64,000 nt of DNA from an uncultured Porphyromonadaceae bacterium. GTDB lineage: Bacteria > Bacteroidota > Bacteroidia > Bacteroidales > Muribaculaceae. The position numbers and the translations under genes were made by a program. The stretch covers positions 55,838 to 119,837 of the forward strand of contig CAMWLS010000001.1 in the NCBI GenBank assembly GCA_947175205.1, given 5' to 3'. The notes beneath the pieces were generated by a model. That model saw only the letters and a program-made list of their open reading frames with translations. It had not been told where the DNA came from and did not search any database. Of this stretch, positions 6,107 to 64,000 are shown one piece after another. Within the stretch, counting starts at the first letter, position 1, and each line of letters starts with the position of its first letter.

Positions 6107-7693
6107 TTAGAAACGGAAGCCGGTGGAAATTACTATGGATTTCTGAGAGAGCTTCACATCAGCTCCGGGTGTAACATAACCTGAGTAATCAGTGTATGCT
6201 TTATACTGACTCTTGCGGTCAGTGTGAACATAAGCGGCATCAATATACCATAACTGATAACGATAGCCGAGGCCCACTGAGAAGCTCTGCGAATCGCGGT
6301 TTAATGAATAGCTCAGGTCTGTACCGCTGGTAAGAACTTCATATTTACCGTCCAGAGCTTCAGATTTTGTGTCAGAACTTTTATAGCTATATCCTGCACG
6401 TATGCTGAACTGGGGAGTTACACGGTATTCAGCGCCAATGCGGAAAATATTTGAAGCCTGGTAATAATCCTTTATGCAGTTGTTCACTTCAGTTGCGCTC
6501 TGATAGCCGCTCCAGCCGGAAGCATAACTTGTTGTCATATCACCATATGCCACGCGTTCATAGTCAGCGCTCAATATAGCATTGGTACCTACCACTCCCG
6601 CGACGCCAACCATGAAACGCCAGGGTGCGTTAAGGCGTGAATTAAAGTATGCCTCATCAGTGTCTTCGTTCCCATGAAGTTGTCTGTCAGAAGCAGGGTT
6701 ATAATAGCTGTAAGAAGTAGATGCAATAAAATTATGAGACAGAGTGTACCAGGTAGGGGTGTGAATGGCAAAGCCTAATCTGAGCTCGTTTATTGGTTTT
6801 ACGATAACGCCGAACTTCAGGTTCCAGCCTGTTCCGCTGACATACTGGTCATTGTAAAGGTCAAAGCCTGCGTTACCTGTAGTGATGCCTCCGGTAGCAG
6901 TATTATAAATGGTGCCGTTTTCAATGCTTTCACTGTAATATGAGTTGCGTGAATATGATAGATCAGTGATTCCCACGCCTAAACCCCAATATACAACGTC
7001 CTGTACATTACCACCGAAATCAATGTTATATTCATCCACATAACCACTTTCTTTGGTAACGTAATCAGCATCAGCGAGCGCACTTGAAGGCTGAAGACCC
7101 ACGTATTGTCCCGGTCTGGTGCCGTTTATCATATATGAATTATAAGCAAGGATACTAAGCCAGTCATTATTGGAATCCAGATACGGATTATAACCGGTGG
7201 AGAAGTCAAGGTCAGATGAAGACACACCGTCAGTAAAGCCTGCAATGTAGTTAGTCATGGAAGTGGGCGTTCCCAACTGATAACCTGAGGATATACGGTT
7301 GAAACTTGCCTTACGTCCATAGCTGACACCCCAGTTGAAGGTTCTTAGCGAGCCGGTGGTGCGTATGGAACCTACGTATGCCACATTATTACATGACACT
7401 TTGGTATTCTTCCAGTCACGTGAATAATTAGGCGCGGTAGAGTTAAAGGTGTTGATGGCAATATCCATTGTAGCACCAATGTCACTGCGGTTATAAACGC
7501 CTATACCGGCGGGATTCTGTCCAAGGACAGAGAGGTCGCCACCTAAAGCGGTAAACGCTCCACCCATGGCCATAAAGCGGGCGGTACCTAAATTTTCAGA
7601 CTGTGAAAGTGTGGCCGCAAGAGTAGGGGCCTGAGCCAATGCCGCTGCTGGTAATGCTGCTAATGCTGCAGCGGCCAGTTTTCTTAGCTTCAT
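6107..7693 (-). CDS. OmpP1/FadL-type outer membrane protein
   Basis: Signal peptide then ENLGTARFMAMGGAFTALGGDLSVLGQNPAGIGVYNRSDIG, characteristic of Bacteroidetes OmpP1/FadL proteins; ends in aromatic residue. Confidence 0.8.
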   Translation of the reverse strand: MKLRKLAAAALAALPAAALAQAPTLAATLSQSENLGTARFMAMGGAFTALGGDLSVLGQNPAGIGVYNRSDIGATMDIAINTFNSTAPNYSRDWKNTKVSCNNVAYVGSIRTTGSLRTFNWGVSYGRKASFNRISSGYQLGTPTSMTNYIAGFTDGVSSSDLDFSTGYNPYLDSNNDWLSILAYNSYMINGTRPGQYVGLQPSSALADADYVTKESGYVDEYNIDFGGNVQDVVYWGLGVGITDLSYSRNSYYSESIENGTIYNTATGGITTGNAGFDLYNDQYVSGTGWNLKFGVIVKPINELRLGFAIHTPTWYTLSHNFIASTSYSYYNPASDRQLHGNEDTDEAYFNSRLNAPWRFMVGVAGVVGTNAILSADYERVAYGDMTTSYASGWSGYQSATEVNNCIKDYYQASNIFRIGAEYRVTPQFSIRAGYSYKSSDTKSEALDGKYEVLTSGTDLSYSLNRDSQSFSVGLGYRYQLWYIDAAYVHTDRKSQYKAYTDYSGYVTPGADVKLSQKSIVISTGFRF

Positions 7694-7727
7694 ATATAAA
7701 AGTTAATTACGGTTATTCAGATTTAAA

Positions 7728-8942
7728 TTATCTTCTGCCGCGGCCGCCTCCTGAGGAGCCGCCGCCACGTGTGCCACCCATGCCACCTCCATAAGACCCT
7801 CCGCGTGAGCCTGTGCTGAAGCTGCTTCCACGGCTGGTTGAACCTGAGCGGTTACTGTTATTGTTATAGTTGTTTGTACGGTTGCTGGTGGTGTTTTTAG
7901 TTGTGGTTGAAGTGTTAGAACTGTTTACGGAATTACGGCCGCGTGTGTTCAGACTGGGTGATGCATTTACAGTACCGGACACAGATGACGCAGAAGGTGT
8001 AAAACCGGTATTCACAGTTGCAGAAGGTGTCTGATTCAGGACGCCCTTATTACCTGAGTTTCCGGGACGTGTGGCAGTGGCTGTCCCGGAACTGCCGGGT
8101 CGAGTGGTTGAGCCGGAAGCGGAGGGTGTGTAATACTGACGGTTACCGGAATTATATGTGGGGCGTCCCATATTACCCGGGCGTGTATTTGTGCCGGTAC
8201 CAATACTGTGTGCCACATTTGACCCACCCACCGGTCTGTGCAGTGATGATGCACCCGGGCGTGAAACAGGACGCCAGTTATAAGCGGGAGCCCATGTGTA
8301 TCCCCATCCGGGACCCCAGCTCCATGACGGATAGTACCCCCAGTAAGGATTGTAGTAGCCGTAATAGTTCCAAGAGGGACCCCAGTACCAGTTATTCCAA
8401 TACCAATTGTTCCAGTACCAGTTATTCCAACCCCAGTTCCATCCATAGTTATATGTGCAGGGATAGAGGAAAGGGTCATTGTTAACATATATATTCACAG
8501 TGGGAGAAGGCTGTGAACTGTAATACATCTTCACCAGCTCCTCATCATTACTTCCGGTTACAACATCAGGGTTGTGAAATTTCTCAAGGCGCTGGGTGTA
8601 CTGAAAGTTATCATAGCCTCCCAGTGAATCAGTATAAGCAGTCTGCTGGTCTTCTACCAGAAATGAGCCGTGACGGTTATACGCATCCACATCAAAGGAA
8701 GATGAGCCGTAACCGCCGTAATAACTATTATAGTCAGCATCATCAGCAGTGTCATAAATAACATTACTTTCAGACGTTACGGTTTTAGTTGTTTTCTGAG
8801 TATTGCTCTTATTTGTTTTCTTAGCAGGAGTGCCGTAGATGTCATCGTCGTAGTAACTCTGAGCTGACACTTGAGTGACTGTCAGCAGCCCGATTGCCGT
8901 CAGTGCCATCGGGAGAAATCTTATCATGGCGTTTGCTTTCAT
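7728..8942 (-). CDS. Secreted low-complexity protein with (WNNWYWNNWYW) aromatic repeats and Asn/Ser/Gly-rich C-terminus
   Basis: Signal peptide; YNYGWNWGWNNWYWNNWYWNNWYWGPSW repeat; long S/T/N/G/R tail. No recognised family. Confidence 0.7.
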   Translation of the reverse strand: MKANAMIRFLPMALTAIGLLTVTQVSAQSYYDDDIYGTPAKKTNKSNTQKTTKTVTSESNVIYDTADDADYNSYYGGYGSSSFDVDAYNRHGSFLVEDQQTAYTDSLGGYDNFQYTQRLEKFHNPDVVTGSNDEELVKMYYSSQPSPTVNIYVNNDPFLYPCTYNYGWNWGWNNWYWNNWYWNNWYWGPSWNYYGYYNPYWGYYPSWSWGPGWGYTWAPAYNWRPVSRPGASSLHRPVGGSNVAHSIGTGTNTRPGNMGRPTYNSGNRQYYTPSASGSTTRPGSSGTATATRPGNSGNKGVLNQTPSATVNTGFTPSASSVSGTVNASPSLNTRGRNSVNSSNTSTTTKNTTSNRTNNYNNNSNRSGSTSRGSSFSTGSRGGSYGGGMGGTRGGGSSGGGRGRR

Positions 8943-9079
8943 GTGAGTTATCTTATAAAGTCAGTGAATCTTTTTCTCTTTAGACGCATTATGAAGCGGA
9001 TAGTTTAGCCAAAGTTACACATTTTATTATAAAAATAGGCCATTATTCAGAAATAATTATGCTGTGATATATAATATCA

Positions 9080-9115
9080 GGACGCTGTGCCTGAGAAAAC
9101 CCCGGTACAGCGTCC
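9080..9115 (-). terminator. Terminator of the HdeD-like gene
   Basis: GGACGCTGTGCC...GGTACAGCGTCC, 12-bp stem with one G-U pair. Confidence 0.7.
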
Positions 9116-9141
9116 CGTTTAGCTTATATTACAGCTAAAGA

Positions 9142-9702
9142 TTATTCATTATACTCTTTAACCGGTTTCATTTCAAGTCCGGCAATGGCCACTGTGAAAC
9201 CCCAGTAAATGAAAGCTATTGCTGTAAGGAATGATACCATGAATGTATCAGACATGTAAGTTCCTTCAAGGAACAGATAACCGATGATACAGAGGAGGAT
9301 ACCGTTTATAAGCTGCAGCCACCAGCGCTTGCCGCCACGTCCTGAACAGGCACCTGCAAGGGCCTCAACACCCCAGAAGAAGAAGAGGAATGAGAGGAAT
9401 ACGGGGAATACAGCTTCAGAAAGGATGATGCTTCTTACAAGGGTAAAACCAATAAAGATATCTATCACACCTCCTGCAAGCCACCATCCCCAGCCGCGAG
9501 GACGGTTTTCTCCTGCTGATACGCATAGCTGCACAATACCTGCAAGAATCAGTAGCCAGCCAAATATCTGTGATGCAATAGCATATCCTGCTGCAGGCCA
9601 GAACCAATATGCAAAGCCTCCTATTACCAAGGCAACGCCTACTATCAATACAAGCCACCAAAGACGGGACTGTCCAAGATAAGATTTCGTTGAGTTTCTC
9701 AT
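9142..9702 (-). CDS. HdeD/DUF308 family membrane protein
   Basis: Six-TM small membrane protein with LILAGIVQL and WLAGGVIDIFIGF motifs. Confidence 0.65.
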   Translation of the reverse strand: MRNSTKSYLGQSRLWWLVLIVGVALVIGGFAYWFWPAAGYAIASQIFGWLLILAGIVQLCVSAGENRPRGWGWWLAGGVIDIFIGFTLVRSIILSEAVFPVFLSFLFFFWGVEALAGACSGRGGKRWWLQLINGILLCIIGYLFLEGTYMSDTFMVSFLTAIAFIYWGFTVAIAGLEMKPVKEYNE

Positions 9703-9792
9703 AACTGTATGTGTTGAATGTTATTAATGTAATTTTCTGAAATATTTAACAGCTGTTAAGCCGCTTCTGTTAATATAACACTTGGCGAAATG

Positions 9793-9825
9793 AGTTTGTT
9801 GAACTGATATAAATAATTAATTTTG
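9793..9825 (+). promoter_or_regulatory. Bacteroidales-type promoter upstream of mutS2
   Basis: TTTG, about 19 nt, then TAATTTTG, matching the TTTG/TAnnTTTG consensus. Confidence 0.5.
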
Positions 9826-9845
9826 CATTAAATTAAAGATGACAC

Positions 9846-12374
9846 ATGGAAGATTCCATAAAGCGTTTCAGAAGAAAGAAGACATCAGCCCGCTCCCGGG
9901 AAAATCATAAGGTAACCGCTGCGGTACTTGAGGAAAAGATAGGTTTCACAAGCATCAGGGAGGATCTTAAGGAATTGTGCCTGACTCCCCTTGGGGTTAC
10001 GTGCGTGGAAGAAATGGGTTTCATGAAAGAACCTAATTCTGTGTCACTTCACATACATTCAGTATCAGAGATGATTACAGCCATGGAAACTGATGACGGT
10101 TTCCCCATTGGTGGTATCGCGGACTTGACCTCTGAAGTAAGACGTATACGTCCGGAAGGGACCATGCTTTCAGCTAAAGAGTTTTCTGACCTGAGGTTAT
10201 GTCTGAAAGCCATGGCACGTATGTCACAGTGTATAAACGCGGTTCAGAACGGTTCTGATAACAAGCCCATGTATCCTGCCCTACATCACATTGCCGGTGG
10301 TATGACGGCGTTCCCTTCTCTTGTAAACGGAATTGACAGGATTATTGACCACAACGGCCAAGTACTGGATAATGCATCGCCGGAACTGTCTGAGATACGG
10401 GCAAGACTAACCTCAATGCAGGGTACCATCTCACGGGCCATGCGTAAGGCCTTAAATAACGCAGCCAAGGAGGGTATAATTGAGCCTGAAACAACGGTGG
10501 CCATCAGAGACGGACGTCCTGTCATTCCAGTAGTGGCAATGCACAAACGCAAAATAAGCGGCATAGTACATGATATGTCCGCCACCGGAAAGACGGTTTT
10601 TATTGAGCCGGCAGAGGTGGTGGAAGCCGGTAATAGGTTAAGGGAACTTGAGGCTGAGGAACGTAATGAGATAGCGCGTATATTAACTGCGCTTACAGCC
10701 TTACTGAGACCATTTACTGAGCAATTGCTGGATGCCTTTGTCCTGATAGGAAAAGTTGATTTCATATATGCCAAAGCTACTTATGCCCGTGAAAACAGCT
10801 GTCAGCTGCCGCGCATGTCCCGCTTCCCGGCACTTGAAATATATGGCGCGCGCCATCCGGTACTGGCTCAGTCACTGGAAGAAAAGGGAAGAGAAATCAT
10901 ACCCCTTAATTTAAAACTGGACAGTGAAAACAGAATTCTTATTGTTTCCGGTCCAAATGCCGGCGGTAAATCTGTGGTGTTAAAAACTGTAGCAGTAAAT
11001 CAGTACATGGTGCAGTGCGGAATGCTGCCATGCCTGTATTCAAACTCACGAATGGGAATCTTTGGCAGCATCTTTATAGAGATAGGTGATGACCAGTCTA
11101 TAGAAGATGATTTGTCAACATATTCATCTTTCTTGCAGAATATAAAGCGTCTTCTGATTACAGGGACTTCAAACACACTTTTTCTTATAGATGAGCTGGG
11201 AGCCGGTACTGAGCCGTCAATAGGCGGTGCCATGGGTCAGGCTATTCTTGAAAATCTCAATGAAAGGAAAATGTGGGGTGTTGTGACCACGCACTTCCGG
11301 AATCTAATTGCACTTGCAGATGAGACTTCCGGAATGATTAACGGCTCAATGCTTTATGACCGTGCGGCTATGCAGCCCTTGTTTCAACTTTCAGTGGGAC
11401 ATCCGGGCAGTTCATTTGCAATGGAGATTGCCAGACGCACCGGTATACCAGAAGCTATTATAAACAGGGCCGGAGAGATTGTGGGCGACGACTATGTGAA
11501 TGCAGACCGTTTCCTTCTGGATATTAATCGTGACAAGAAATATTATGAGAACAAGCGCAGGGAAATCAGGCAGAAGGAAAAACAACTTGATACAATTATA
11601 GAGCAGTACTCTGACCGCGTGGAAACGCTTCGCAATGAAAGGAAAGCCATAATAAAAGAAGCTAAAGAAGAGGCTTCACGCATAATAACGGGAAGTAACG
11701 CTGCCATAGAGCGCACTATCCGTGAAATAAAAGAAGCTCAGGCTGACAAAGAAAAAACACGTCTTGCACGTCAGAAATTGCAGCAGGAGAAAGCGGCAAT
11801 CACGCACTCTGATTCATCTATGGATGCTCATCCGCTTCTGAAATCAGGAAAGGCTAAAGGGAAATCCATCAGGAAAGCTGCTGCGACACCAACTACGGTT
11901 ACACCCAAGCCGGAAATCAGAAAAGGAACTAACGTGTTGCTGGATGGAACCGGTACACCTGGTACAGTACAGAGTATTGACGGGAAAAAGGCAGTGGTGG
12001 TTTTTGGCCTTTTAAAAACGACTGTGGACGTGGCACGCCTTGTGCCCACTCTTAAGCAGGTGTCATCCGGAGCAAAAGCAGCTACATTTATTTCTGCAGC
12101 TACTACAGACTCTTTGCGTGAACGACAGCTGAATTTCAATACTCAGCTGGATATCCGCGGATTCAGAGCTGATGAGGCCTTGCAGGCAGTCATGCATTTC
12201 ATTGATGATGCCTTACGCATGGAAATAAGTCCTCTGCGAATTCTGCACGGTACCGGAAACGGAATTCTCAGACAGGCAGTGCGGGAATATTTAAAAACAG
12301 TACCCGGTGTCATATCCTTCCGTGATGAGGATGTCCGTATGGGTGGCGCCGGTATAACTGTGGTTGAAGTCTGA
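9846..12374 (+). CDS. mutS2: Endonuclease MutS2
   Basis: VSGPNAGGKSVVLKTVA Walker A, LFLIDELGAGTEPSIGGAMGQA, C-terminal Smr domain LDIRGFRADEALQAVMHFIDDALRMEISPLRILHGTGNGILRQAVREYL. Confidence 0.95.
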   Translation: MEDSIKRFRRKKTSARSRENHKVTAAVLEEKIGFTSIREDLKELCLTPLGVTCVEEMGFMKEPNSVSLHIHSVSEMITAMETDDGFPIGGIADLTSEVRRIRPEGTMLSAKEFSDLRLCLKAMARMSQCINAVQNGSDNKPMYPALHHIAGGMTAFPSLVNGIDRIIDHNGQVLDNASPELSEIRARLTSMQGTISRAMRKALNNAAKEGIIEPETTVAIRDGRPVIPVVAMHKRKISGIVHDMSATGKTVFIEPAEVVEAGNRLRELEAEERNEIARILTALTALLRPFTEQLLDAFVLIGKVDFIYAKATYARENSCQLPRMSRFPALEIYGARHPVLAQSLEEKGREIIPLNLKLDSENRILIVSGPNAGGKSVVLKTVAVNQYMVQCGMLPCLYSNSRMGIFGSIFIEIGDDQSIEDDLSTYSSFLQNIKRLLITGTSNTLFLIDELGAGTEPSIGGAMGQAILENLNERKMWGVVTTHFRNLIALADETSGMINGSMLYDRAAMQPLFQLSVGHPGSSFAMEIARRTGIPEAIINRAGEIVGDDYVNADRFLLDINRDKKYYENKRREIRQKEKQLDTIIEQYSDRVETLRNERKAIIKEAKEEASRIITGSNAAIERTIREIKEAQADKEKTRLARQKLQQEKAAITHSDSSMDAHPLLKSGKAKGKSIRKAAATPTTVTPKPEIRKGTNVLLDGTGTPGTVQSIDGKKAVVVFGLLKTTVDVARLVPTLKQVSSGAKAATFISAATTDSLRERQLNFNTQLDIRGFRADEALQAVMHFIDDALRMEISPLRILHGTGNGILRQAVREYLKTVPGVISFRDEDVRMGGAGITVVEV

Positions 12375-51969: not shown

Positions 51970-53466
51970 ATGGCAACTTTCAAAGCAACTGTCCGGGGAG
52001 AACGCGCAGACGGCTTCATGCAGGTGTATATCCGCGTGACTCATAACCGCGCTCACGGATATATCAAGACTGACAAGATGATAACCCGGAAAGAACTTGG
52101 GAAAAGTAAGGAAATCACTGACCCTTTCGTTATGAATTACTGCACGGCTCTAATAATGGAGTACAATGAGCTGCTCAACCGCAAGGACATCAGCAAATGG
52201 ACAGTTGCGGAGGTGGTAGAGTTTCTGAAGCATGGCGATGAGGATATTTGTTTCAGCGACTATGCACGCCTGCACATTGACCGACTGATTGACAACGACC
52301 AAGAGCGGACATCGCGCAACTACAAACTGGCTCTTCAACACATGGAGCGTTTCTTTGGCACGAACAAAATCATGTTCGGGAAGCTTACCTCTATACAGGT
52401 CAATCGTTGGATAGCGACTTTGGAGCAGACGCGCCGGGCAAAGGAGATGTATCCAGTTTGCATGAGGCAGGTGTTCAGAGCTGCCTTAACGGAGTTCAAT
52501 GATTACGACAACGGCATTATCCGTATCAAGACCAATCCGTGGGGCAAAGTGAAGATACCGACTGCGGACCGGTCCGAGAAGATTGCCATTTCTCCCGAAG
52601 AGTGCCGGGCGTTCTTTGCGGCTCCGCTCCCTGCCACGCGGATGATTGACCCCCTGCCCGAACTGGGGCGCGATGTGGCTATGCTTGTGCTATGTCTCGC
52701 AGGGATGAACACGGCAGACATCTATGAGCTGCGCAAAGAGAATTATCGTGACGGCGTGATATGTTACAAGAGAGCCAAGACCCGAAAGAGCAGACGCGAT
52801 GATGCCTACATTGAAATGCGCGTTGAGCCTATCATCGAGCCTATCATCAAAAAATATCTTACAGATGATGATGACCCCTACCTGCTGAACTTTCATAAGC
52901 GGTACTGCGATTTTGACTCTTTCGGGGCAAATGTCAACAATGGCATTCGGCAGGTGTGCAAGTCAATGAATATCCCAAAGGAGAAATGGTATTGCGTTTA
53001 TACGTTCCGGCACACATGGGGAATAATCGCGCAGAACGATTGCGGAGCGAGTATTGCAGAGGTGGCTTTTGGTATGAACCATTCTCACGGATATAAGATA
53101 ACAAGAGATTATCTGAAGAAAGATTTCACTCCGGCCTGGGAATTGAACGCGAAAGTGATTGACTTTATATTTTTCTCAACGGAGAAAGGCAAGCAGGGAT
53201 TGGCGCGAGATGTGGATGAGCCGAAAGACAAGATGTTCCGGCTCTCTCCCAAATACATGGTCTACGCTCGTGCCTATTTCCGTGGGGAGGTGCTTGCGGA
53301 GGTCAGCGACATTGGCTTCGGGACCGTTGGCGATGTTGTCAGCCGACTGGCAGAGCAGTTGCCCGACACAATCCCGATAGGCTGTGCCGTCCAGTTCCGC
53401 ATCAAGAACGTGGACACCGACCGCGAGGTTGTGTATGAACACACCAAAGGCAAAGGGTTCTTTTGA
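51970..53466 (+). CDS. Tyrosine-type site-specific recombinase/integrase
   Basis: SAM-like core-binding region; catalytic domain with LCLAGMNTADIYELRKENY, YTFRHTWGIIAQNDCGASIAEVAFGMNHSHGYKITRDYLK. Confidence 0.9.
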   Translation: MATFKATVRGERADGFMQVYIRVTHNRAHGYIKTDKMITRKELGKSKEITDPFVMNYCTALIMEYNELLNRKDISKWTVAEVVEFLKHGDEDICFSDYARLHIDRLIDNDQERTSRNYKLALQHMERFFGTNKIMFGKLTSIQVNRWIATLEQTRRAKEMYPVCMRQVFRAALTEFNDYDNGIIRIKTNPWGKVKIPTADRSEKIAISPEECRAFFAAPLPATRMIDPLPELGRDVAMLVLCLAGMNTADIYELRKENYRDGVICYKRAKTRKSRRDDAYIEMRVEPIIEPIIKKYLTDDDDPYLLNFHKRYCDFDSFGANVNNGIRQVCKSMNIPKEKWYCVYTFRHTWGIIAQNDCGASIAEVAFGMNHSHGYKITRDYLKKDFTPAWELNAKVIDFIFFSTEKGKQGLARDVDEPKDKMFRLSPKYMVYARAYFRGEVLAEVSDIGFGTVGDVVSRLAEQLPDTIPIGCAVQFRIKNVDTDREVVYEHTKGKGFF

Positions 53467-54005: not shown

Positions 54006-55454
54006 TTATTTTATGATTATTTTTCGGGTTTCTAAACCGGATTTTGATTTCCAAATATATATTCCTTGCTGAATATTAGACCATTCATAGAGTTTGACAT
54101 TGTTCTGCACAAGAATGCCGTTCAAAGCATATAGGTTACCGACAGAATTATTTAAATCAGCTGTAATATCTTCAATGCCTGAACCGGACTGAGACTGTGG
54201 AAATACAGGAAGTGACGGAAACCAGTAGTTGGAAATCATAGGATATTCCTTGATGAGATTTCCGTTGGCATCAAAACGACGGGTCACGTATGTCGGATCG
54301 ACAAACTTATGAAACATCGAGGCATATAATTCGTCGGTAACAGGATGGATTCCCAATGAACATCCATATACATGCCAGTCGCCTGGTTCTTGCGAGAAGT
54401 CTAATAATTTTTCTATTTTCCCTGAATCAATATCAAAACGAAATATCCGATAATTAGTAAACCAACTGTTCGGGCCCCCGCACCAGTACAGGCTGTTGGT
54501 GACAGAAGAGGCGCAGAATGGGTCAGGAGTCCAGGCATACCATGAATTGGATGGAGGGAAAATATCATCGCCCTCAATCTTTATTACTTCACGCTGGAGG
54601 GTTGCGGGATCCAATCTTATGATATATGGCACGGTGGCACCTGTTCCCTGAACATTTTTTGATGCCGAATACCACAAATTTCCATCCTTTGACATTACGA
54701 TAGTGGATCCGATGCCTGACATTCTGCGCGGTCTGCTGCCTGTGTCACGCTCAATGGCATCATCTACAATTTCCATATCCAGTACTTCAATAACCTTGTC
54801 TGATGAAGGGTCAATTACTAACATGCCATATTGCTGATGTACAGCAAATACTTTCCCTTGAGCAAGAATCATTGTGCCGGTTTGCCCAAAATATAGAGAA
54901 CTTGTCGGGTCGCTATTAGGTTTGTCATTATCTCCACCGGCGTTAGGATTGGCAGAGCCTTCCACCTGGCCTTCAATCTCGAGAGTGTTGAGATTCAAAA
55001 CCCATATCCCATTGCTTGTGGAAACGTAACCTTTATCTTGGTCAACTCCGCAGAATGCCCTGCCGTCACACTGATGCCCCGACGGGTCAATCAGTTGAAG
55101 CTGTTTAATCAGTTTCATTGTCGTGGCATCGGCAATAGATATCCTTCCGCCTGTGATACTTGCTCCGGGGTCCTTTTCCTGCTTTGCAATCATATACAGC
55201 CTGCCGTTCCATATCGCTCCATACTGGTTTGTACACCCGAGCTCCATACCCGGATTCTCAGTCTGAATTACCCGGTAATACCAATAGTTTTCATCCGGGT
55301 CGTCAGGCAGAAGGTAGTTGACAGTCGAGTTCTGATGTCCATACCAGTCCTCGTTGATAAAGATTACCCCTTTTGAGTAATCAATATCTCCTGCAGCGGC
55401 ACAGGCTGCCGCTGCAAGAAACATTGAGAAAACAAGTGACAGTTTGCGTATCAT
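54006..55454 (-). CDS. Secreted beta-propeller (DUF5074-like) protein with T9SS-like C-terminal tail
   Basis: Signal peptide; propeller-like repeats; C-terminus GNLYALNGILVQ...QQGIYIWKSKSGLETRKIIIK; homologous to the C-terminal half of the next gene upstream. Confidence 0.75.
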   Translation of the reverse strand: MIRKLSLVFSMFLAAAACAAAGDIDYSKGVIFINEDWYGHQNSTVNYLLPDDPDENYWYYRVIQTENPGMELGCTNQYGAIWNGRLYMIAKQEKDPGASITGGRISIADATTMKLIKQLQLIDPSGHQCDGRAFCGVDQDKGYVSTSNGIWVLNLNTLEIEGQVEGSANPNAGGDNDKPNSDPTSSLYFGQTGTMILAQGKVFAVHQQYGMLVIDPSSDKVIEVLDMEIVDDAIERDTGSRPRRMSGIGSTIVMSKDGNLWYSASKNVQGTGATVPYIIRLDPATLQREVIKIEGDDIFPPSNSWYAWTPDPFCASSVTNSLYWCGGPNSWFTNYRIFRFDIDSGKIEKLLDFSQEPGDWHVYGCSLGIHPVTDELYASMFHKFVDPTYVTRRFDANGNLIKEYPMISNYWFPSLPVFPQSQSGSGIEDITADLNNSVGNLYALNGILVQNNVKLYEWSNIQQGIYIWKSKSGLETRKIIIK

Positions 55455-58400
55455 TTGATTATTATTTTCTTAGATAAACCATCGTTAGATACAAGGATAT
55501 AGACACCCGGGCTGAGGGTGACAGTGTGGATGAATTGGTCACCGTCGGCCGTAAACGAATCCACAGCCAGGCCTTGAACATTAACGATATCAAATGACAT
55601 ACCTTTATATCCGATTACAGTGATTGTATGTCCGTCACTGCTGATTCGGCGCACTGAATCTTCAACTGAATCCACTCCGGTGGTACCTTCATTAACTTCT
55701 ATACCGACAGTATGATTTATCACCTTACCGTTTGACTCTATGGCAAGTCCCACTGTATGATTACCGACAGCTTTTGGTGTCAACGTAAGTTTATTGCCTT
55801 CGAGCGCTACTTCAACAGGCTGCTGACCGGCTTCATTGGCCATCATTCGAGGATCACTTATGAGCGAGTAGCGGATGTTTGCATCATTGTTATCGCGGTC
55901 AGTTGCATTGATGGTGATTTCAACAGGTTCATCGTCAAGTTTCAACTTGACATCATCTATAGCCTCTACTTCCGGATCGTAAGCATCAGGGAATATCGGC
56001 ATGGACTGGAACCAATAATAGGGTCTGAGTTCCACCGTAGCGTTGAATGTTCCATCCTCGGCATTGATGAAATGAGTCCAGTTGTAGCGATAATGTCCGG
56101 AAGCCTTTGATTCTGTTGTTCCGGCAATAATTTCACCGGTTCGGTCATCATAACGCACCGTTCCGTAAGCACCTTGTTTCAGGCCAGGAGTATGAGCGGG
56201 AAGTCCGGCTACCTTTGCTATGTGTCTGAACTCTTTGGTATCAACGTCATATCGCCAGTAGTCACCGTCACCACCATTGGCAATGCTGCTGCCGCCGGAG
56301 AAGAACAGTGAATTGACGGAGTGAGCGCCGGTGAACTGAGTCGTGCGCCAGGCACCCCAACCGCAAGTAACCACTCCACATTCTTCCGGAACATCCACTC
56401 GGTCTGATTCCTCGAGCGACAGATGGTCAATGGCTACAAACACGCTATGGCCATCCTCCTTGGTTGCATACCACACGCGGCCATCGGCTCCCTGGGTAAT
56501 ACCTTGTACATTCTTGTCAGCTATTGACTTGACAATCATATCGGAATCAATATCTACAATGTAAACACCGGCATCCTGTTTGATAGCAAATACATGATTA
56601 CCCGCAAGTACCATATCACCTATCTGACCGCTGTAAAGTGAGCCTGAGGGATCGGTATTCGGTTTGCCGTCATCTTCATCATCTATGAGTTCCTGACTTA
56701 CCTTTCCAAGAATTTCAAAATTTTCAATATCTATGACATAGATACCATTATTTGTACCCATGTAAATGCGGCCCGTACCGGCGCCACACAGCGCGCGACC
56801 GTCGGCACTTCTTGCTTCATCTTCAAGTTTGATTTCATCTATTGAACCGAGGCGCTGAAGCGTAGCTGCATCGGCAACCACGAGCCGACCTCCGCCGGGT
56901 AAAGGATCTCCACCGTCGGCAGCCTGTTTTGAACTTACAATCAGTTTGTCATTATAGATTAATCCATACTGCGATGTGCAACCGAACGACATGCCGGGAT
57001 TTTCACGCTCGTATGCCTGATAAGTTACACTATAATCAGGTGCAAACCAGTTAAGGCCACCGTTAGTGTGTCCGAACCATTCCTCATTGAGCATAATTGT
57101 ACCGGTGGTGTAATCAATCACACTTTCGCGTTCCTGTTCAACAACTTTCACGGGAATTTCCTTTGTAAAGCCTGAACCGTCGGTCGCAGTAACCGTCAGC
57201 TTACACTCACCCACGCGATGTCCGGAAAGCTCGTAAGGTGTCATGCGGGTATTATTCTCATCCCAAAGATTGACCTTATACATCGTAGCGATATAATTGC
57301 TCATGGCCGAACCGTTGTCCGATAATGATAAGGTAACATCAGCTATATCCGGATCAGCAGGCGTGAATATCGGGAACAAACCGGTCATTTCCTTTGGAGT
57401 CAAAGTCAGAACGCCATCTTCGCCGACAGCCTCGAAAGTGATGTCCTCTACAGGAACTTTCAAGGATGAAGTAAGCGAATAGCCGGCTGTAATGTCAGTG
57501 TTAAAAGCATAGGTAGCCGTAATGTCTGCATCACCGGCAGTTTTTGTGGTGGTGACTACACCCGTTGAAGCCACGGTTGCTGCACGTGTATTAGAACTTT
57601 TATACGTCATTTTTGTGTATGTAGCGTCAGCCGGTTCAATAACGAGTGTATTATCAACCGTATGGCTGAGTCGCGCATCAACTTCAGGCAGCTCGTAGCT
57701 CATGGATGTGATCGGACGCACCGGGTTTCGCAATACGATTTTAGCATTGTTCGAGAACACGTATTCTGCTTTAGTTGTACCCGGGGCAGTGTAAGAACCG
57801 CGAATCTGCACGCTTCCTTCGGTCGGTGCAAAGTTGCTGTAAGCTGTCACATGTCCCATCAGATTCTGTACATTCGTTGCAGAAATCATGGAAAAATCAG
57901 ACTTGATCCACGTAAATGCAGTATTGATTTTTCCTCCTTCGGGCAACTGGATAAACACAGGCAGCTCGAGATTTTTATCAGCAAGAGCATAGTCAATATA
58001 TGACGGCACAGTGAGAATCTGCTCCGAATCAAGCGCCGGTCTGAACAGGACGTATGGCAGTTCTACCGATGCCGTTTCCTTCGGTTGGTGTGAAAAAATC
58101 ATTACAGCATTCGGATTAAGCCATCTGCCTGAATTGACTTTATTGAAATCAGCGTCAATGGTACGCTTCACATAGCAGTTCCAGGTATCCGACACATCAA
58201 CATGATCATAAGCACTTGTAATCTTGCCGTCGTGGTCGGAATCATACGTGAGCAGCAGCTGACTGCCGGATTTGGAGAACGACATACGCGGATCAGCGTT
58301 GGCTATGTTGGTTATAACTGTCAGCAGGTCATCGTCCCAACCACCGCTCCAACGATAACCGTAAACAAGATTTTCAGGTCCGCGTCCGTCGTTAAACTGA

Positions 58401-59302
58401 AATATCACTGTAGCCGCCTTTTCACCTGAACCGACCCAGAATGTCACATCCGACTGATCTATGGGTTGAACAGCTTCAGCAGCCTCGTGCATTTCCTCAC
58501 CCCAGTCAGCCATATCGTAATTGAGGGTTTCAGCCAGTTCGCCACCCATATATCCGATACCGTCACCGTTGAATATGATATATTTCCACGCTTGCACACA
58601 GCCGTCAGTCAATACGGTGCTTGACATTCCCAGACCGGAATATCCCATATAGTCATAGTCGTTTGGCCCGTGCCAATACGACCAATAGCCGTCATACCAT
58701 CCTGACCGCCACCGATACTCCGGGGCTTCAAAGCCCTCTTCCAGTTGCCAGTAATCATAATCATAGGCCGGATAACCGTAGAAAAATGCATTGAGCGGAT
58801 GCTCGATAATGCCGGTTTCTTTTGCGCGGTTGATAGCGTCAATACACATATGTTCGGCCTCATAGCCCGGTGCGGTTTCCTGCCCCATGGAGATGTTGGG
58901 ATCGAAGAAGCCGAATGACACCTCGCCACCGATTGCCGCGCGGTCAAAATCGTAATGCAGGTAATCCAGTTCCTCCCGGTTTTGACTCACTCCAAAGGCG
59001 TTCAGGGTTGAGCCCATTGTGCCGGTGTACTGAATCATTGCAGTCAGAATACTGCTCTGTGATGCCACAGCGCGGATAAGATCCTCGCCTGTCTTTGTGC
59101 CGTTCCAACGGTAGCCCCATACCAGTGACTCCATTCCCTCGACATCCTGAAAGTCAATCACTAGAGCACACTTTTTTTCACCATTGGGATCTCCGGCCCA
59201 ATGTTGGATTTGATCCCAGTCAACCCAGTCAATATACTCGACTGCGCCAACTGTGAATGTCTGTACTACTAGAGCAAGACATAATAATAGAACTTTTTTC
59301 AT
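55451..59302 (-). CDS. 1283-aa mosaic surface protein: two GYRW-type repeats, Ig-like region, DUF5074-like propeller, T9SS-like tail
   Basis: Repeat units CALVIDFQDVEGMESLVWGYRWNG and ATVIFQFNDGRGPENLVYGYRWSG; Big2-like YKSSNTRAATVASTGVVTTTKTAGDADITATY; propeller; C-terminus SPGVYILVSNDGLSKKIIIK. Confidence 0.75.
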   Translation of the reverse strand: MKKVLLLCLALVVQTFTVGAVEYIDWVDWDQIQHWAGDPNGEKKCALVIDFQDVEGMESLVWGYRWNGTKTGEDLIRAVASQSSILTAMIQYTGTMGSTLNAFGVSQNREELDYLHYDFDRAAIGGEVSFGFFDPNISMGQETAPGYEAEHMCIDAINRAKETGIIEHPLNAFFYGYPAYDYDYWQLEEGFEAPEYRWRSGWYDGYWSYWHGPNDYDYMGYSGLGMSSTVLTDGCVQAWKYIIFNGDGIGYMGGELAETLNYDMADWGEEMHEAAEAVQPIDQSDVTFWVGSGEKAATVIFQFNDGRGPENLVYGYRWSGGWDDDLLTVITNIANADPRMSFSKSGSQLLLTYDSDHDGKITSAYDHVDVSDTWNCYVKRTIDADFNKVNSGRWLNPNAVMIFSHQPKETASVELPYVLFRPALDSEQILTVPSYIDYALADKNLELPVFIQLPEGGKINTAFTWIKSDFSMISATNVQNLMGHVTAYSNFAPTEGSVQIRGSYTAPGTTKAEYVFSNNAKIVLRNPVRPITSMSYELPEVDARLSHTVDNTLVIEPADATYTKMTYKSSNTRAATVASTGVVTTTKTAGDADITATYAFNTDITAGYSLTSSLKVPVEDITFEAVGEDGVLTLTPKEMTGLFPIFTPADPDIADVTLSLSDNGSAMSNYIATMYKVNLWDENNTRMTPYELSGHRVGECKLTVTATDGSGFTKEIPVKVVEQERESVIDYTTGTIMLNEEWFGHTNGGLNWFAPDYSVTYQAYERENPGMSFGCTSQYGLIYNDKLIVSSKQAADGGDPLPGGGRLVVADAATLQRLGSIDEIKLEDEARSADGRALCGAGTGRIYMGTNNGIYVIDIENFEILGKVSQELIDDEDDGKPNTDPSGSLYSGQIGDMVLAGNHVFAIKQDAGVYIVDIDSDMIVKSIADKNVQGITQGADGRVWYATKEDGHSVFVAIDHLSLEESDRVDVPEECGVVTCGWGAWRTTQFTGAHSVNSLFFSGGSSIANGGDGDYWRYDVDTKEFRHIAKVAGLPAHTPGLKQGAYGTVRYDDRTGEIIAGTTESKASGHYRYNWTHFINAEDGTFNATVELRPYYWFQSMPIFPDAYDPEVEAIDDVKLKLDDEPVEITINATDRDNNDANIRYSLISDPRMMANEAGQQPVEVALEGNKLTLTPKAVGNHTVGLAIESNGKVINHTVGIEVNEGTTGVDSVEDSVRRISSDGHTITVIGYKGMSFDIVNVQGLAVDSFTADGDQFIHTVTLSPGVYILVSNDGLSKKIIIK

Positions 59303-60543
59303 TTGTTGTGATTTTTGTATTTGGTTAATGATTTGTTATTCAACGGATCAGGCAATGGAATGCCGGGCAGTGCAATGTGCAGGTCCTGAGCGCGTGCAAT
59401 CTCGGTGGATGTTTCGCCGAGCCATCCACAATACTGATTCAGACCGGTATAAACCCTTACGAAGTCAATTCCGGGCAGATGAACCGGAGTGCCGTCAGAG
59501 TCAACTGCCATGGAAATATCAAAAGAGTTCAAGTCGGCATAGTCGTTAGGATGATTGTCCACGTAGCCGTAATCGTAGGCATATAGGACATAATAACGCC
59601 CCGTGCCGCTGAGATCTATGCCGTTAGGCGCCAGTCGTGACCCGGTAAAGGTCAGTTCGTTTTCATCGGTCCACTTTGGGAAATACTCCTGAGAGTGGAA
59701 TATATTCTTTGCGATGTATCCGTTCATTCCTTCCGAATCAGTCCATGGAATGTATGTTATATCATCAAGATAGCCGGTATCATCCTCTTCCGGAATATGT
59801 CCGGGTATGGGTCGGCGGTAAGTTATCCGGTAATTATGAAGAGTTTCGGGCTTATAGTATTCACTGCCGGCCAGTTCATACCAATCGTCATCCGGAACAC
59901 CGTTACAGTTTGCATCGTAACTGACCATAACTATTCCGGGTTCGGCTGAGCCTCCCCTGGCTTCAGGATTTGTAAGCTCGTAAAATGCGTTACCCCATAT
60001 TCTGAAATCACTCTCACCGGCCACATTCATCACCGTGTGGTCAAATCCGAATGTGACATATCCGCCGTAACCGCCGAGTGTTATCATTATATCATTCGTC
60101 CCCGATATTGATTCCTCGGCTTTCCGGAGAATATCGGCATAAGTATCACCCTCTTCATACCGTGGCATTTCATTGACAAACTGTCCCGGTGCCGGACAAT
60201 ATTCATATACCCGTGAGATATAAGGTGAATACTCCACCTCTTCGTGAAGCACGTTTATGGTAAATTCAAAATGATAGGGCGTGTCATCATCAATTATATC
60301 AAACGTCAGGTTGTAGATGCCTTCATCCTGCGCTATAAAAATATAACTGCGGTCAGCCGACACTTTCACTCCATTAACTGTCCAGAGATATTCTTCACCC
60401 GTCAGCGCAGACTCCAGCGGCAATTTTGACATACGCGGTATATAGTACGTATCGTCAATGCCAAGATTCACCATAGGAATTTCGGAAGTGCAACCGATCA
60501 GTGACATCAGGCCGGTGATATATATCAAAAGCTTCTTATTCAT
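59299..60543 (-). CDS. Cell-surface lipoprotein of cobalamin-locus type (PKD-like N-terminus)
   Basis: Lipobox LMSLIGC; PKD-like EEYLWTVNGVKVSADRSYIFIAQDEGIYNLTFDI; large C-terminal domain; embedded in the riboswitch-controlled operon. Confidence 0.7.
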   Translation of the reverse strand: MNKKLLIYITGLMSLIGCTSEIPMVNLGIDDTYYIPRMSKLPLESALTGEEYLWTVNGVKVSADRSYIFIAQDEGIYNLTFDIIDDDTPYHFEFTINVLHEEVEYSPYISRVYEYCPAPGQFVNEMPRYEEGDTYADILRKAEESISGTNDIMITLGGYGGYVTFGFDHTVMNVAGESDFRIWGNAFYELTNPEARGGSAEPGIVMVSYDANCNGVPDDDWYELAGSEYYKPETLHNYRITYRRPIPGHIPEEDDTGYLDDITYIPWTDSEGMNGYIAKNIFHSQEYFPKWTDENELTFTGSRLAPNGIDLSGTGRYYVLYAYDYGYVDNHPNDYADLNSFDISMAVDSDGTPVHLPGIDFVRVYTGLNQYCGWLGETSTEIARAQDLHIALPGIPLPDPLNNKSLTKYKNHNK

Positions 60544-61690
60544 TTTTCAAGAATGTTATATGTGCCGGAATATCACCTGTACGCACACTCCATTTTTTCT
60601 TTCCGTCAGGCCGGAAACAATAAAGTGTTCCCGATGATACATAGTTCTTTGCATCTGTCACGAATATGTCGCCGGTTTCAGGATGAATTGCAATCCCGTA
60701 AGGAATCGTTATATCTTTTTCAGTCCCGTCGGTAATGAAATTATCTGAAATCTTTTCCTTGGTGCGGACATCAATTATCCCGTAAGTGATTGTGTTGGTA
60801 GCGCTGTAATTATTCCACTCCGTCGCGTAATAATACATATAATCACCGAAGAAAGCCATATTGGAACATGCCACCGGAATTGTATCTGTTACCACCATTT
60901 GATTGAATCCCGGTTTCTTCTGCATTACATACAGCCGGGAAGGACGGCTCTGATAATCACCGCGAGATGTCACCCACAGTTTATTATACCGGTCTTTCTT
61001 CAGACGATGGAGATTAATTCCCACCGGAATCTGCTGAACCTGCTTGAAATCCACCATCTGAATGACTGAAACAGTGTTGTCATAATTCGGGGCACGGTAA
61101 CCGCCTGAGTTGGCTACATACATATAGTCATCCACAATCTCCATTTCTTCAGGCTGATAGCCTACCGAAACTTTTCGCGTAACGGCCAAGGAAAGTGTGT
61201 CAACCTCATAAACTGCCCCCTTTGGGGCATTGGGATCAATCAGTACCGGTCCCACATAAGAACTTACGTATGCCTTTCCGCGATGAAATCTGATGTATCG
61301 GCAATTAGGAATATCAATCTGTCCATGCCTGATACCGGAATGAGCATCAAGCACCTCCACTTTATGCGAGCAGTTGACCACCACATACAGCTTGCTACCA
61401 TAGATTCCGATGTCATTTCCCACATCACCAAGTTCCTTTATCACATTAGGATTTCGTTCGGCGTAAAAGTTGCGTGAATAGAGTCCGGTATGATAGTCAT
61501 AATAATCCAGCGTACATTTGTTGGATCCCATATTCCCTTCGTTAACCAGATAAAATCCTCGCAGGGAGCCGTCAAGTTTTTCATCACCTATAATATCATA
61601 CTCCGTGGGCACCACAAGTTCGTCCTCACGACAACTTGTGGCGACCATCAAGAGCGGCAGAAAATATAAGAAAAATTGTTTTGTTGTCAT
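60536..61690 (-). CDS. BtuG-like surface beta-propeller lipoprotein (predicted cobalamin binding)
   Basis: Lipobox LMVATSC; YVTN/YncE-like propeller repeats; directly follows the BtuB-like receptor under a cobalamin riboswitch. Confidence 0.75.
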   Translation of the reverse strand: MTTKQFFLYFLPLLMVATSCREDELVVPTEYDIIGDEKLDGSLRGFYLVNEGNMGSNKCTLDYYDYHTGLYSRNFYAERNPNVIKELGDVGNDIGIYGSKLYVVVNCSHKVEVLDAHSGIRHGQIDIPNCRYIRFHRGKAYVSSYVGPVLIDPNAPKGAVYEVDTLSLAVTRKVSVGYQPEEMEIVDDYMYVANSGGYRAPNYDNTVSVIQMVDFKQVQQIPVGINLHRLKKDRYNKLWVTSRGDYQSRPSRLYVMQKKPGFNQMVVTDTIPVACSNMAFFGDYMYYYATEWNNYSATNTITYGIIDVRTKEKISDNFITDGTEKDITIPYGIAIHPETGDIFVTDAKNYVSSGTLYCFRPDGKKKWSVRTGDIPAHITFLKNE

Positions 61691-63678
61691 ATTTCTACAG
61701 TAAGAGTAAATCTGTAATTACGTTTCGGCATCGGATAGTTGAGAATTACATCATAATCTTGACTAAGGAGATTGTTTATTTCAATAAGACCGCGAAGACT
61801 AACTCGCCCCAACATAAAATCCTTACTCAAGGAGACATCGGATGTGTACCATGGTTGGGTATAGTTATACCTGATATTCTCCTGTTGATTGTATCGTTCT
61901 CCAACATATATCCAAGAGTAATTGAGACCCCAACCTTTCCACTGAGCATTTACAACTGCTGCTCCGGAATGGCGAGGTATATACGGAATCTGATCTCGGT
62001 AGTAATTATCAGACGGATTAGTTATATCTATTGCCCGTTGAAAAGTATATTGAGCGCGAACTGTAAGATATATATCACGATATGGATTTAGTGTCAAAAG
62101 TCCTGTAACATCTATTCCTTGAATATCTACGAGCCCAAGGTTAAGCATTGTCCATCTGAACTGTTGACCTTTGGGGTACGCGACAATCTTATCCTTAACT
62201 CTATTATAATAAATATCAGTGCTTAAGCGAGCGGCGGAAATAAATGTGTAAGAATTATGGTCGTAAAGTAAACCGATGTTATATTGTGTTACTCTTTCCG
62301 GTGAAAGTTGAGAATTGCCCATATCTGCATAATACAGGTCATTAAATGTAGGCATTCGGAACGATTGCTTAAAGAAAACTCTGATTGAGAAATCTTTTTT
62401 ATGAAAAGGGTATGTATTTAAGAATATGGCGGGAGAAAAAACATGTTTATCATCCGGTGCCTTTTGACCTCTTATCTTATCGTGAATAAATGTGCCAAGA
62501 GCGCTTGCTTGAATTTTAATACGATTAAAGTTCAACGCTGTAGCAGCAGATAAAAATTGCGATATCCGATCAGGCTTAACAAATCCATACACATCTGCAT
62601 CAAGAGTGTTCCACATAAAATCATAGCTTGCTGACACACTACAAAAATTTGTTACCTCGTACTCATTTGCAGAAGAAAAATAAACCTCCTTTTGCTTATA
62701 TAGATTGTCAATTTTTACCTGCTTGTCATCGTTGTTGACGTAGTGAGTGCGATAAAACGCATATTTGATATTATTTAAGGTTGTGAATTTCCCAAAAAAT
62801 CCAGTATACCGACCTTGTGCAAATGAGTTGGTATCCCATATACGTTCCCCCCTTCGCCATACATTGTTGACAATTGCTCCCGGGACTCCTCTCTCCGAAT
62901 TGTAATTATAAACTTTGAAATTCCAAGAACCGGAGTTCAGTATGCCATGAGTGTTCAACTCAATTCGGGTGGCATTTATATCCCCGTTCTGTCTAACCGC
63001 AGTAGTATCATATGCAAGTTCTCCCGCGGGATTAACTCTACGATAACGGAATTTATATTTACCACTTGAATTAATCCACTCTGCACTTAAAGACGTAGAA
63101 ATCCTCTCGCTAAGTTTCAGTTCAATAAGAGCAGAAGGATTTAATAAATCAAAGGAGCCGGTACGAACTGTGGCTCTTGCATGGTAGTTTTCCCCATCAT
63201 TGAACACAGGAGTCCGAGTCCTCATATATATGGTGCCTGCAGAGCCAAAATCTTTAGCAGGTTGCAATATTTCGCTTTTCTGACCATTGTAGAGTGATAA
63301 AGCTTCAATATTATCCAGCGAGAATTGACCTAAATCTATTTGACCGTTCTGTGCATTTCCGAGTTCCACCCCATCATAAACCACACCCGTATGGTTTGTC
63401 CCCATAGACCGAATATTGACGGTTTTGATTCCGCCAACGCCACCGTAATCTTTTACTTGGACACCCGAAAAATAACGTAAGGCATCCGCAACACTATTAC
63501 TGTTTAATCTATGTAGCTCTTCACCCGACAGTGTCTGAGCCGGTATAATGTCTTCATTAAGTTTACGTGCGGTTACCACTACTTCCTTTAATTGATAAGA
63601 AAGGGAGTCAAGCGGTACGTCCGCAAATGCCTCAAAAGGGATGATATTAAGAATCACCAATGAGAATAGATATTTCAT
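61687..63678 (-). CDS. btuB: BtuB-like TonB-dependent receptor
   Basis: Plug region LKEVVVTARKL, SVADALRYFSGVQVKDYGGVGGIKTVNIRSMGTNHTGVVYDGVELGNAQNGQIDLGQFS; beta-barrel ending RNYRFTLTVEI; cobalamin riboswitch upstream. Confidence 0.85.
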   Translation of the reverse strand: MKYLFSLVILNIIPFEAFADVPLDSLSYQLKEVVVTARKLNEDIIPAQTLSGEELHRLNSNSVADALRYFSGVQVKDYGGVGGIKTVNIRSMGTNHTGVVYDGVELGNAQNGQIDLGQFSLDNIEALSLYNGQKSEILQPAKDFGSAGTIYMRTRTPVFNDGENYHARATVRTGSFDLLNPSALIELKLSERISTSLSAEWINSSGKYKFRYRRVNPAGELAYDTTAVRQNGDINATRIELNTHGILNSGSWNFKVYNYNSERGVPGAIVNNVWRRGERIWDTNSFAQGRYTGFFGKFTTLNNIKYAFYRTHYVNNDDKQVKIDNLYKQKEVYFSSANEYEVTNFCSVSASYDFMWNTLDADVYGFVKPDRISQFLSAATALNFNRIKIQASALGTFIHDKIRGQKAPDDKHVFSPAIFLNTYPFHKKDFSIRVFFKQSFRMPTFNDLYYADMGNSQLSPERVTQYNIGLLYDHNSYTFISAARLSTDIYYNRVKDKIVAYPKGQQFRWTMLNLGLVDIQGIDVTGLLTLNPYRDIYLTVRAQYTFQRAIDITNPSDNYYRDQIPYIPRHSGAAVVNAQWKGWGLNYSWIYVGERYNQQENIRYNYTQPWYTSDVSLSKDFMLGRVSLRGLIEINNLLSQDYDVILNYPMPKRNYRFTLTVEI

Positions 63679-63713
63679 TCTTCCAGTTAGAAGGTTAATA
63701 CTCAGAAAATAAA

Positions 63714-63752
63714 TTCCCGTCTGCGTACTAACAGAATGTACACAGACGGGAA
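63714..63752 (-). terminator. Strong hairpin with T-rich tail between riboswitch and btuB
   Basis: Minus strand TTCCCGTCTGTGTAC-ATTCTGTTA-GTACGCAGACGGGAA then TTTATTTTC; 15-bp stem with one wobble. Confidence 0.75.
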
Positions 63753-63850
63753 AATATATTAACTTCTAACGAGCGTCAAACGACGTTATGCTCTAATACC
63801 AGAACTTTATAAGCTGCCCATAATCCCGCAGGCACATTCATGTTTACGGC

Positions 63851-64000
63851 AAAGGCAGGTCTTCTGACTTATCCCAATCTATTACGCCTTCTCAAGACTA
63901 AACAGTCTCAATGACTTAGTGCAATAGACTTTGGTATAGGATTCACAGCAGCGGGTACTGTCCCGGATTCTCACCGGATTCCCTTTTAAATCTCCTGAAT
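63851..64000 (-). promoter_or_regulatory. Cobalamin riboswitch, 5' end cut by window edge
   Basis: Minus strand AAAAGGGAATCCGGTGAGAATCCGGGACAGTACCCGCTGCTGTGAATCC...AGTCAGAAGACCTGCC, matching the conserved cobalamin (B12-box) core. Confidence 0.93.

Follow-up and report, generated by a model that had tools for sequence, protein, structure and literature searches.

The window, i.e., the whole 64,000-nucleotide stretch that was analysed, contains five minus-strand genes which we read, with a probability of about three in four, as a riboswitch-repressed, translationally coupled operon for extracellular cobamide capture, whose fourth gene encodes a tandem of a hitherto unnamed domain with a predicted transcobalamin-type fold. 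Operons of this type are already known; the new part, as judged from structure models, is the predicted transcobalamin-like tandem of gene 4 together with the wide riboswitch-linked family of this domain.

A cobalamin riboswitch and five overlapping genes

Across the window, Rfam matched a single RNA family, the cobalamin riboswitch aptamer RF00174 (63837-64000, minus strand), with 85.4 bits (cut-off 31.5; E=1.3e-19) over model positions 29-189 of 189. Its 5' end (the first 28 model positions) is missing, since the source contig does not extend past window base 64000. This search of the right edge bears out the preliminary description, which had placed a cobalamin riboswitch ahead of five minus-strand genes. 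According to the ORF list these are btuB (gene 1, 61687-63678), btuG (gene 2, 60536-61690), btuH (gene 3, 59299-60543), gene 4 (55451-59302) and gene 5 (54006-55454), all on the minus strand and overlapping, in this order, by 4, 8, 4 and 4 nt, in agreement with the overlaps of 4-8 nt between stops and starts described before. Solely from these overlaps we infer that the five genes are co-transcribed; promoter and terminator scans gave results near shuffle level. A tyrosine-recombinase-like integrase (51970-53466, plus strand) converges on the 3' end of the operon. The idea that it marks a mobile element was set aside, the remaining listed flanking genes looking like housekeeping genes.

Gene 1 encodes a BtuB1-type TonB-dependent cobamide transporter of 663 aa (E=1.8e-129 to PDB 8blw_A, BtuB1 of B. 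theta; TonB plug domain, 3e-15) and gene 2 a BtuG surface propeller of 384 aa (E=5e-39 to the propeller half of 8blw_B), which also scores with the DUF5074 propeller family and, by eye, has a lipobox-like ATSC at its N-terminus, so that the earlier naming of the first two genes as BtuB and BtuG stands. The roles of genes 3 to 5 had been called not obvious from sequence, which no longer applies to gene 3: the 414-aa protein matches BtuH (E=6e-73 to the H domain of 8blw_B and 7e-50 to PDB 7biz, BtuH2) and combines a PKD-like N-terminus (PKD_3 slightly below cut-off) with the BtuH B12-binding domain, again with a lipobox-like motif by eye (LIGC). By sequence it is homologous to the C-terminal B12-binding domain of BtuH, a known B12-binding family. 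Genes 4 and 5 turned out to carry DUF5074 propellers, and the truly unusual part is the N-terminus of gene 4. Taken together, RF00174 and the identities of BtuB, BtuG and BtuH argue for the cobamide-capture function that had been suggested for the operon.

A second B12 locus and a BtuC-type permease in the same genome

The genome itself holds a second RF00174 on contig C6, followed by BtuB, a BtuH-like protein and BtuG. In this second B12 locus (L004, G000:C6:48000-66000, about 6600-11400) BtuH precedes BtuG, the reverse of their arrangement in the window, and the BtuH-like protein, with 312 aa, is without the N-terminal PKD-like part. BtuCDF genes had been reported as not visible in the window, and this is matched by a genome-wide search for FecCD (BtuC-type), which located the single copy on another contig (C32), preceded by a BtuF-like ORF and followed by an ABC ATPase. 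CbiC was not found in the genome search, which thus gave no sign of corrin-ring synthesis; the single FecCD permease between these two neighbours and the missing CbiC fit a cobamide scavenger.

Architecture of genes 4 and 5

The 1283-aa exported protein of gene 4 comprises, from its N-terminus, a predicted transcobalamin-like beta-grasp domain A (58478-59227, minus strand; aa 26-275, about 100 of them in an insertion), a second transcobalamin-like domain B (57995-58477, minus strand; aa 276-436, family HMM 5.8e-27), a Big_2 domain, a DUF5074 propeller (55988-57103, minus strand; aa 734-1105, PF16819 E=2.1e-87) and a type IX secretion sorting tail (55454-55615, minus strand; aa 1230-1283, TIGR04183). 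TIGR04183 has a cut-off of 23 bits and scored 20.7 bits on the protein alone and 25.9 bits in the genome scan. With this C-terminal sorting domain and a full-length SprA in the genome (2712 bits), gene 4 has the attributes of a type IX cargo. Gene 5 encodes a 482-aa exported DUF5074 propeller (PF16819 E=6.4e-108) that also matches a DUF5074 relative in the PDB (9s6c, E=1.4e-11). Its C-terminus, RKIIIK, looks T9SS-like by eye, and no T9SS model matched it as a C-terminal sorting domain in the protein scan or the genome scan. Genes 4 and 5 both lack a clear lipobox.

DUF5074 alone was rejected as a blanket B12 marker, given that it matches 259 of the 295 genomes of the order, mostly with the modest scores and the length of about 360 aa that BtuG-type proteins give. 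For the high-scoring subfamily, ten loci (L142-L151) were picked solely for a high DUF5074 score: RF00174 was present in seven of them, BtuB, BtuG or BtuH homologues adjoin the propeller gene in eight, and the other two (L148 and L151) have neither the riboswitch nor such homologues. By sequence, the propellers of genes 4 and 5 appear to belong to this subfamily, which is usually located in B12 loci.

The N-terminal domain of gene 4 and its linkage to B12 loci

Residues 26-436 of gene 4 consist of two copies of one domain, each half retrieving the other by phmmer. A family HMM, built with these two copies included, scored them at 6e-29 (A) and 6e-27 (B). The gene 4 N-terminus had no match in Pfam or NCBIfam scans, and searching PDB sequences with profiles of the family alignments returned nothing beyond chance-like matches (ribosomal L5, BLIP-II, congerin). 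Relatives were gathered purely by protein similarity, riboswitches not being consulted, and on this basis the domain is present in 8 out of 295 class-level and 30 out of 295 order-level genomes. A scan using a seven-sequence alignment yielded 58 named loci, which on the Bacteroidota side come from Bacteroidales, Flavobacteriales, Crocinitomix, Chitinophagales and Saprospirales, and otherwise from Phycisphaerae and other Planctomycetota, Chthoniobacter, Spartobacteria, Kiritimatiellia and Lentisphaerae. The domain occurs singly, in tandems of two to four copies, or fused to DUF5074 propellers or other modules; many Bacteroidota members carry T9SS tails and one planctomycete member a PEP-CTERM motif. 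In L088, L089, L091, L092 and L094 (Flavobacteriales, mostly Crocinitomix) as well as L095 and L097 (four copies), the secreted protein is nearly all domain, in three or four tandem copies. Crocinitomix-type tandem proteins sit directly before btuB and btuG, and L091 comes from a cultured strain, Crocinitomix catalasitica ATCC 23190, whose protein (L091:5941-7482) has three copies.

Among the 61 loci scanned with Rfam (window included), 56 have RF00174 upstream of the domain gene on the same strand, in 40 cases within 400 nt, and three of the five loci without it (L029, L057 and L133) start near a contig end. By chance, a random 17-kb stretch would contain RF00174 in roughly 2% of cases, because the genome under study has two copies in 2.15 Mb. 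Moreover, BtuB or BtuG homologues were found in 60 of 94 domain loci. The locus L048, from a relative in the same family, runs from the riboswitch through BtuG, BtuH, domain, domain plus DUF5074 and DUF5074 to BtuB, the two domain copies of gene 4 being divided between two genes. Ten loci from Planctomycetota, Verrucomicrobiota and Kiritimatiellia (L101-L106, L110, L111, L113 and L124) lie behind cobalamin riboswitches, and the stretches fetched for them contain neither a BtuB nor a BtuG homologue; these members may use a different uptake route. For L102, L104 and L105, the true start codon is probably located further downstream, because the start of the longest ORF overlaps the riboswitch.

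In many loci the transcobalamin-like gene and btuB also flank the gene for a conserved protein, about 325 aa long and starting with ..PPAAGQ.GSTAI.. (e.g., L061:8797-9780, L064:6822-7817, L107:7097-8068, L112:6666-7640 and L024:8873-9865). The Pfam scan of the L061 and L107 proteins returned a T9SS tail and nothing else; the protein represents another unassigned B12-locus family, which is perhaps distantly related to BtuH. In addition, a fluoride riboswitch lies near a B12 locus on the opposite strand (L025:10363-10428).

Predicted fold of the domain

The AlphaFold2 model of domain A from the window (49 sequences) reached a pLDDT of 73.5 and a pTM of 0.78, with the core strands and the helix above 90 and the insertion at low confidence. 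In Foldseek searches of the PDB, its ranks 1-12 were all transcobalamin, although with weak leading E-values (0.24-2.2), and rank 13 was 3u7z, a Ruminococcus gnavus protein. For the compact relative L076, from a Bacteroidales metagenome-assembled genome, the model reached a pLDDT of 95.7 and a pTM of 0.91, and every match at ranks 1-16 was to intrinsic factor or transcobalamin (probability 0.97-1.00, E 0.0099-0.067). One of these, 5np4, is the isolated beta domain in complex with cyanocobalamin (TM 0.58 by target length). Both models have a hairpin between the helix and the next core strand (E60-65 and E68-75 after H46-56 in L076; E65-71 and E77-84 after H51-61 in the window domain). The nearest fold is predicted by these models to be the beta domain of transcobalamin and intrinsic factor, a beta-grasp.

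Sequence comparison with Pfam DUF4430, which we take to be the transcobalamin-like C-terminal domain, left all 28 members of the main family below the cut-off, while four of the seven members of a divergent subgroup matched (best E=1.7e-9, 38.4 bits vs a cut-off of 23.8). Profile-profile comparison showed subgroup and main family to be homologous (99.5%), over a match that spans the N-terminal half of the domain only. Some DUF4430 proteins may bind ligands other than B12.

These data bear on a different explanation, namely that this is an ordinary Bacteroidetes btu operon in which the gene 4 N-terminus is a generic beta-rich surface module, resembling transcobalamin merely through a common fold. 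The beta-grasp is indeed a common fold, the Foldseek E-values are modest and no direct sequence match was obtained. Yet the PDB contains many ubiquitin-like beta-grasps, and the top 16 matches of L076 are nevertheless all B12 carriers, with the probability dropping to 0.15 at the match thereafter; furthermore, the divergent subgroup forms a sequence bridge to DUF4430, and the riboswitch linkage extends across several phyla, so that we consider this explanation very improbable.

Discussion

Based on the combined evidence, we propose that the operon is switched on when B12 is scarce, which would supply BtuB as the transporter, BtuG as the lid and capture propeller, BtuH as the surface binder and two more exported propeller proteins. 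The gene 4 protein would most likely reach the surface or the medium by type IX secretion, where it would grip cobamides via its beta-grasp domains, possibly also via its propeller, and hand them to BtuG/BtuB. A structure of an isolated transcobalamin beta domain in complex with cyanocobalamin exists (5np4). The N-terminus of gene 4 would be a secreted, transcobalamin-like module that presumably binds cobamides.

The strongest rival to this proposal is that the domains serve as docking or assembly modules, anchoring the secreted propellers on BtuB/BtuG or linking them to one another, with the ligand being bound only by BtuG, BtuH and perhaps the propellers. Adaptor roles are frequent among beta-grasp domains (PMC1796856), and BtuL and BtuK2 of B. 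theta, although encoded in B12 loci, bound no B12 (PMC12751083). Many relatives, however, are simple secreted proteins of nearly nothing but one to four domain copies, encoded first after the riboswitch, and the Planctomycetota and Verrucomicrobiota copies occur with no BtuB/BtuG homologue in the fetched stretch. In addition, the closest folds are B12 binders, among them the isolated beta domain with bound cyanocobalamin. A role in docking alone is in our view unlikely.

Returning to cobamide binding by gene 4, it is possible but speculative that a clamp of propeller and beta-grasp cap replaces the toroid-cap clamp of the animal carriers. A more far-reaching version, which we put forward tentatively and with considerable doubt, is that gene 4 and its relatives encode the bacterial equivalent of transcobalamin, a secreted protein: the cobamide would be clamped between the beta-grasp cap and the propeller of a T9SS-exported carrier that is then recovered by BtuG/BtuB. 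If true, this would be a siderophore-like protein carrier for B12, with a domain family common to Bacteroidota, Planctomycetota and Verrucomicrobiota.

Gut and marine communities are shaped by competition for B12, and functions are only now being assigned to the accessory uptake proteins of Bacteroidota. A family that is linked to B12 riboswitches and has the predicted fold of a human B12 carrier offers a concrete set of proteins to test; it connects type IX secretion to B12 capture at the outer membrane and is relevant to the origin of the beta domain of the animal carriers. Our literature search, with subscription journals and preprints mostly outside its range, found no publication that describes a domain of this sort in B12 loci of Bacteroidota.

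Comparison with known systems

The closest described system is cobamide uptake operon 1 of B. theta (btuK1 btuK2 btuH1 btuB1 btuGH btuJ1, BT_1486-1491), with which the window has in common a cobalamin riboswitch, a BtuB1-type transporter, BtuG and BtuH domains and extra surface proteins. In the 8blw complex of B. theta BtuGH is one fused protein, whereas BtuG and BtuH are encoded by separate overlapping genes in the window, and the accessory proteins of B. theta are lipoproteins, whereas gene 4 has a T9SS tail and a clear lipobox is missing from genes 4 and 5. The transcobalamin-like domains of gene 4 are a further difference from operon 1. With respect to the other accessory proteins, one of the two B. 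theta copies of BtuK binds B12 (PMC12751083), and the Pfam scan gave no DUF4465 (BtuJ) match among the five proteins of the window. The B12-binding BtuJ/DUF4465 proteins are, like gene 4, extra secreted or surface proteins of riboswitch-controlled B12 loci, but they have an augmented beta-jelly-roll fold, in contrast to the predicted beta-grasp of the gene 4 domain.

The beta domain of transcobalamin and intrinsic factor belongs to the transcobalamin-like clade of the SLBB beta-grasp superfamily (Pfam DUF4430). The gene 4 family resembles these carriers in that its members are secreted proteins in a B12 context, and differs from them in lacking the alpha/alpha toroid partner, instead of which propeller fusions or tandems of up to four copies occur. 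Unlike the transcobalamin-like clade, the main-family sequences fall short of the DUF4430 model, and their association, in Bacteroidota and relatives, is with BtuB/BtuG and cobalamin riboswitches, as opposed to the CbiO/CbiQ transporters of Gram-positives (PMC1796856).
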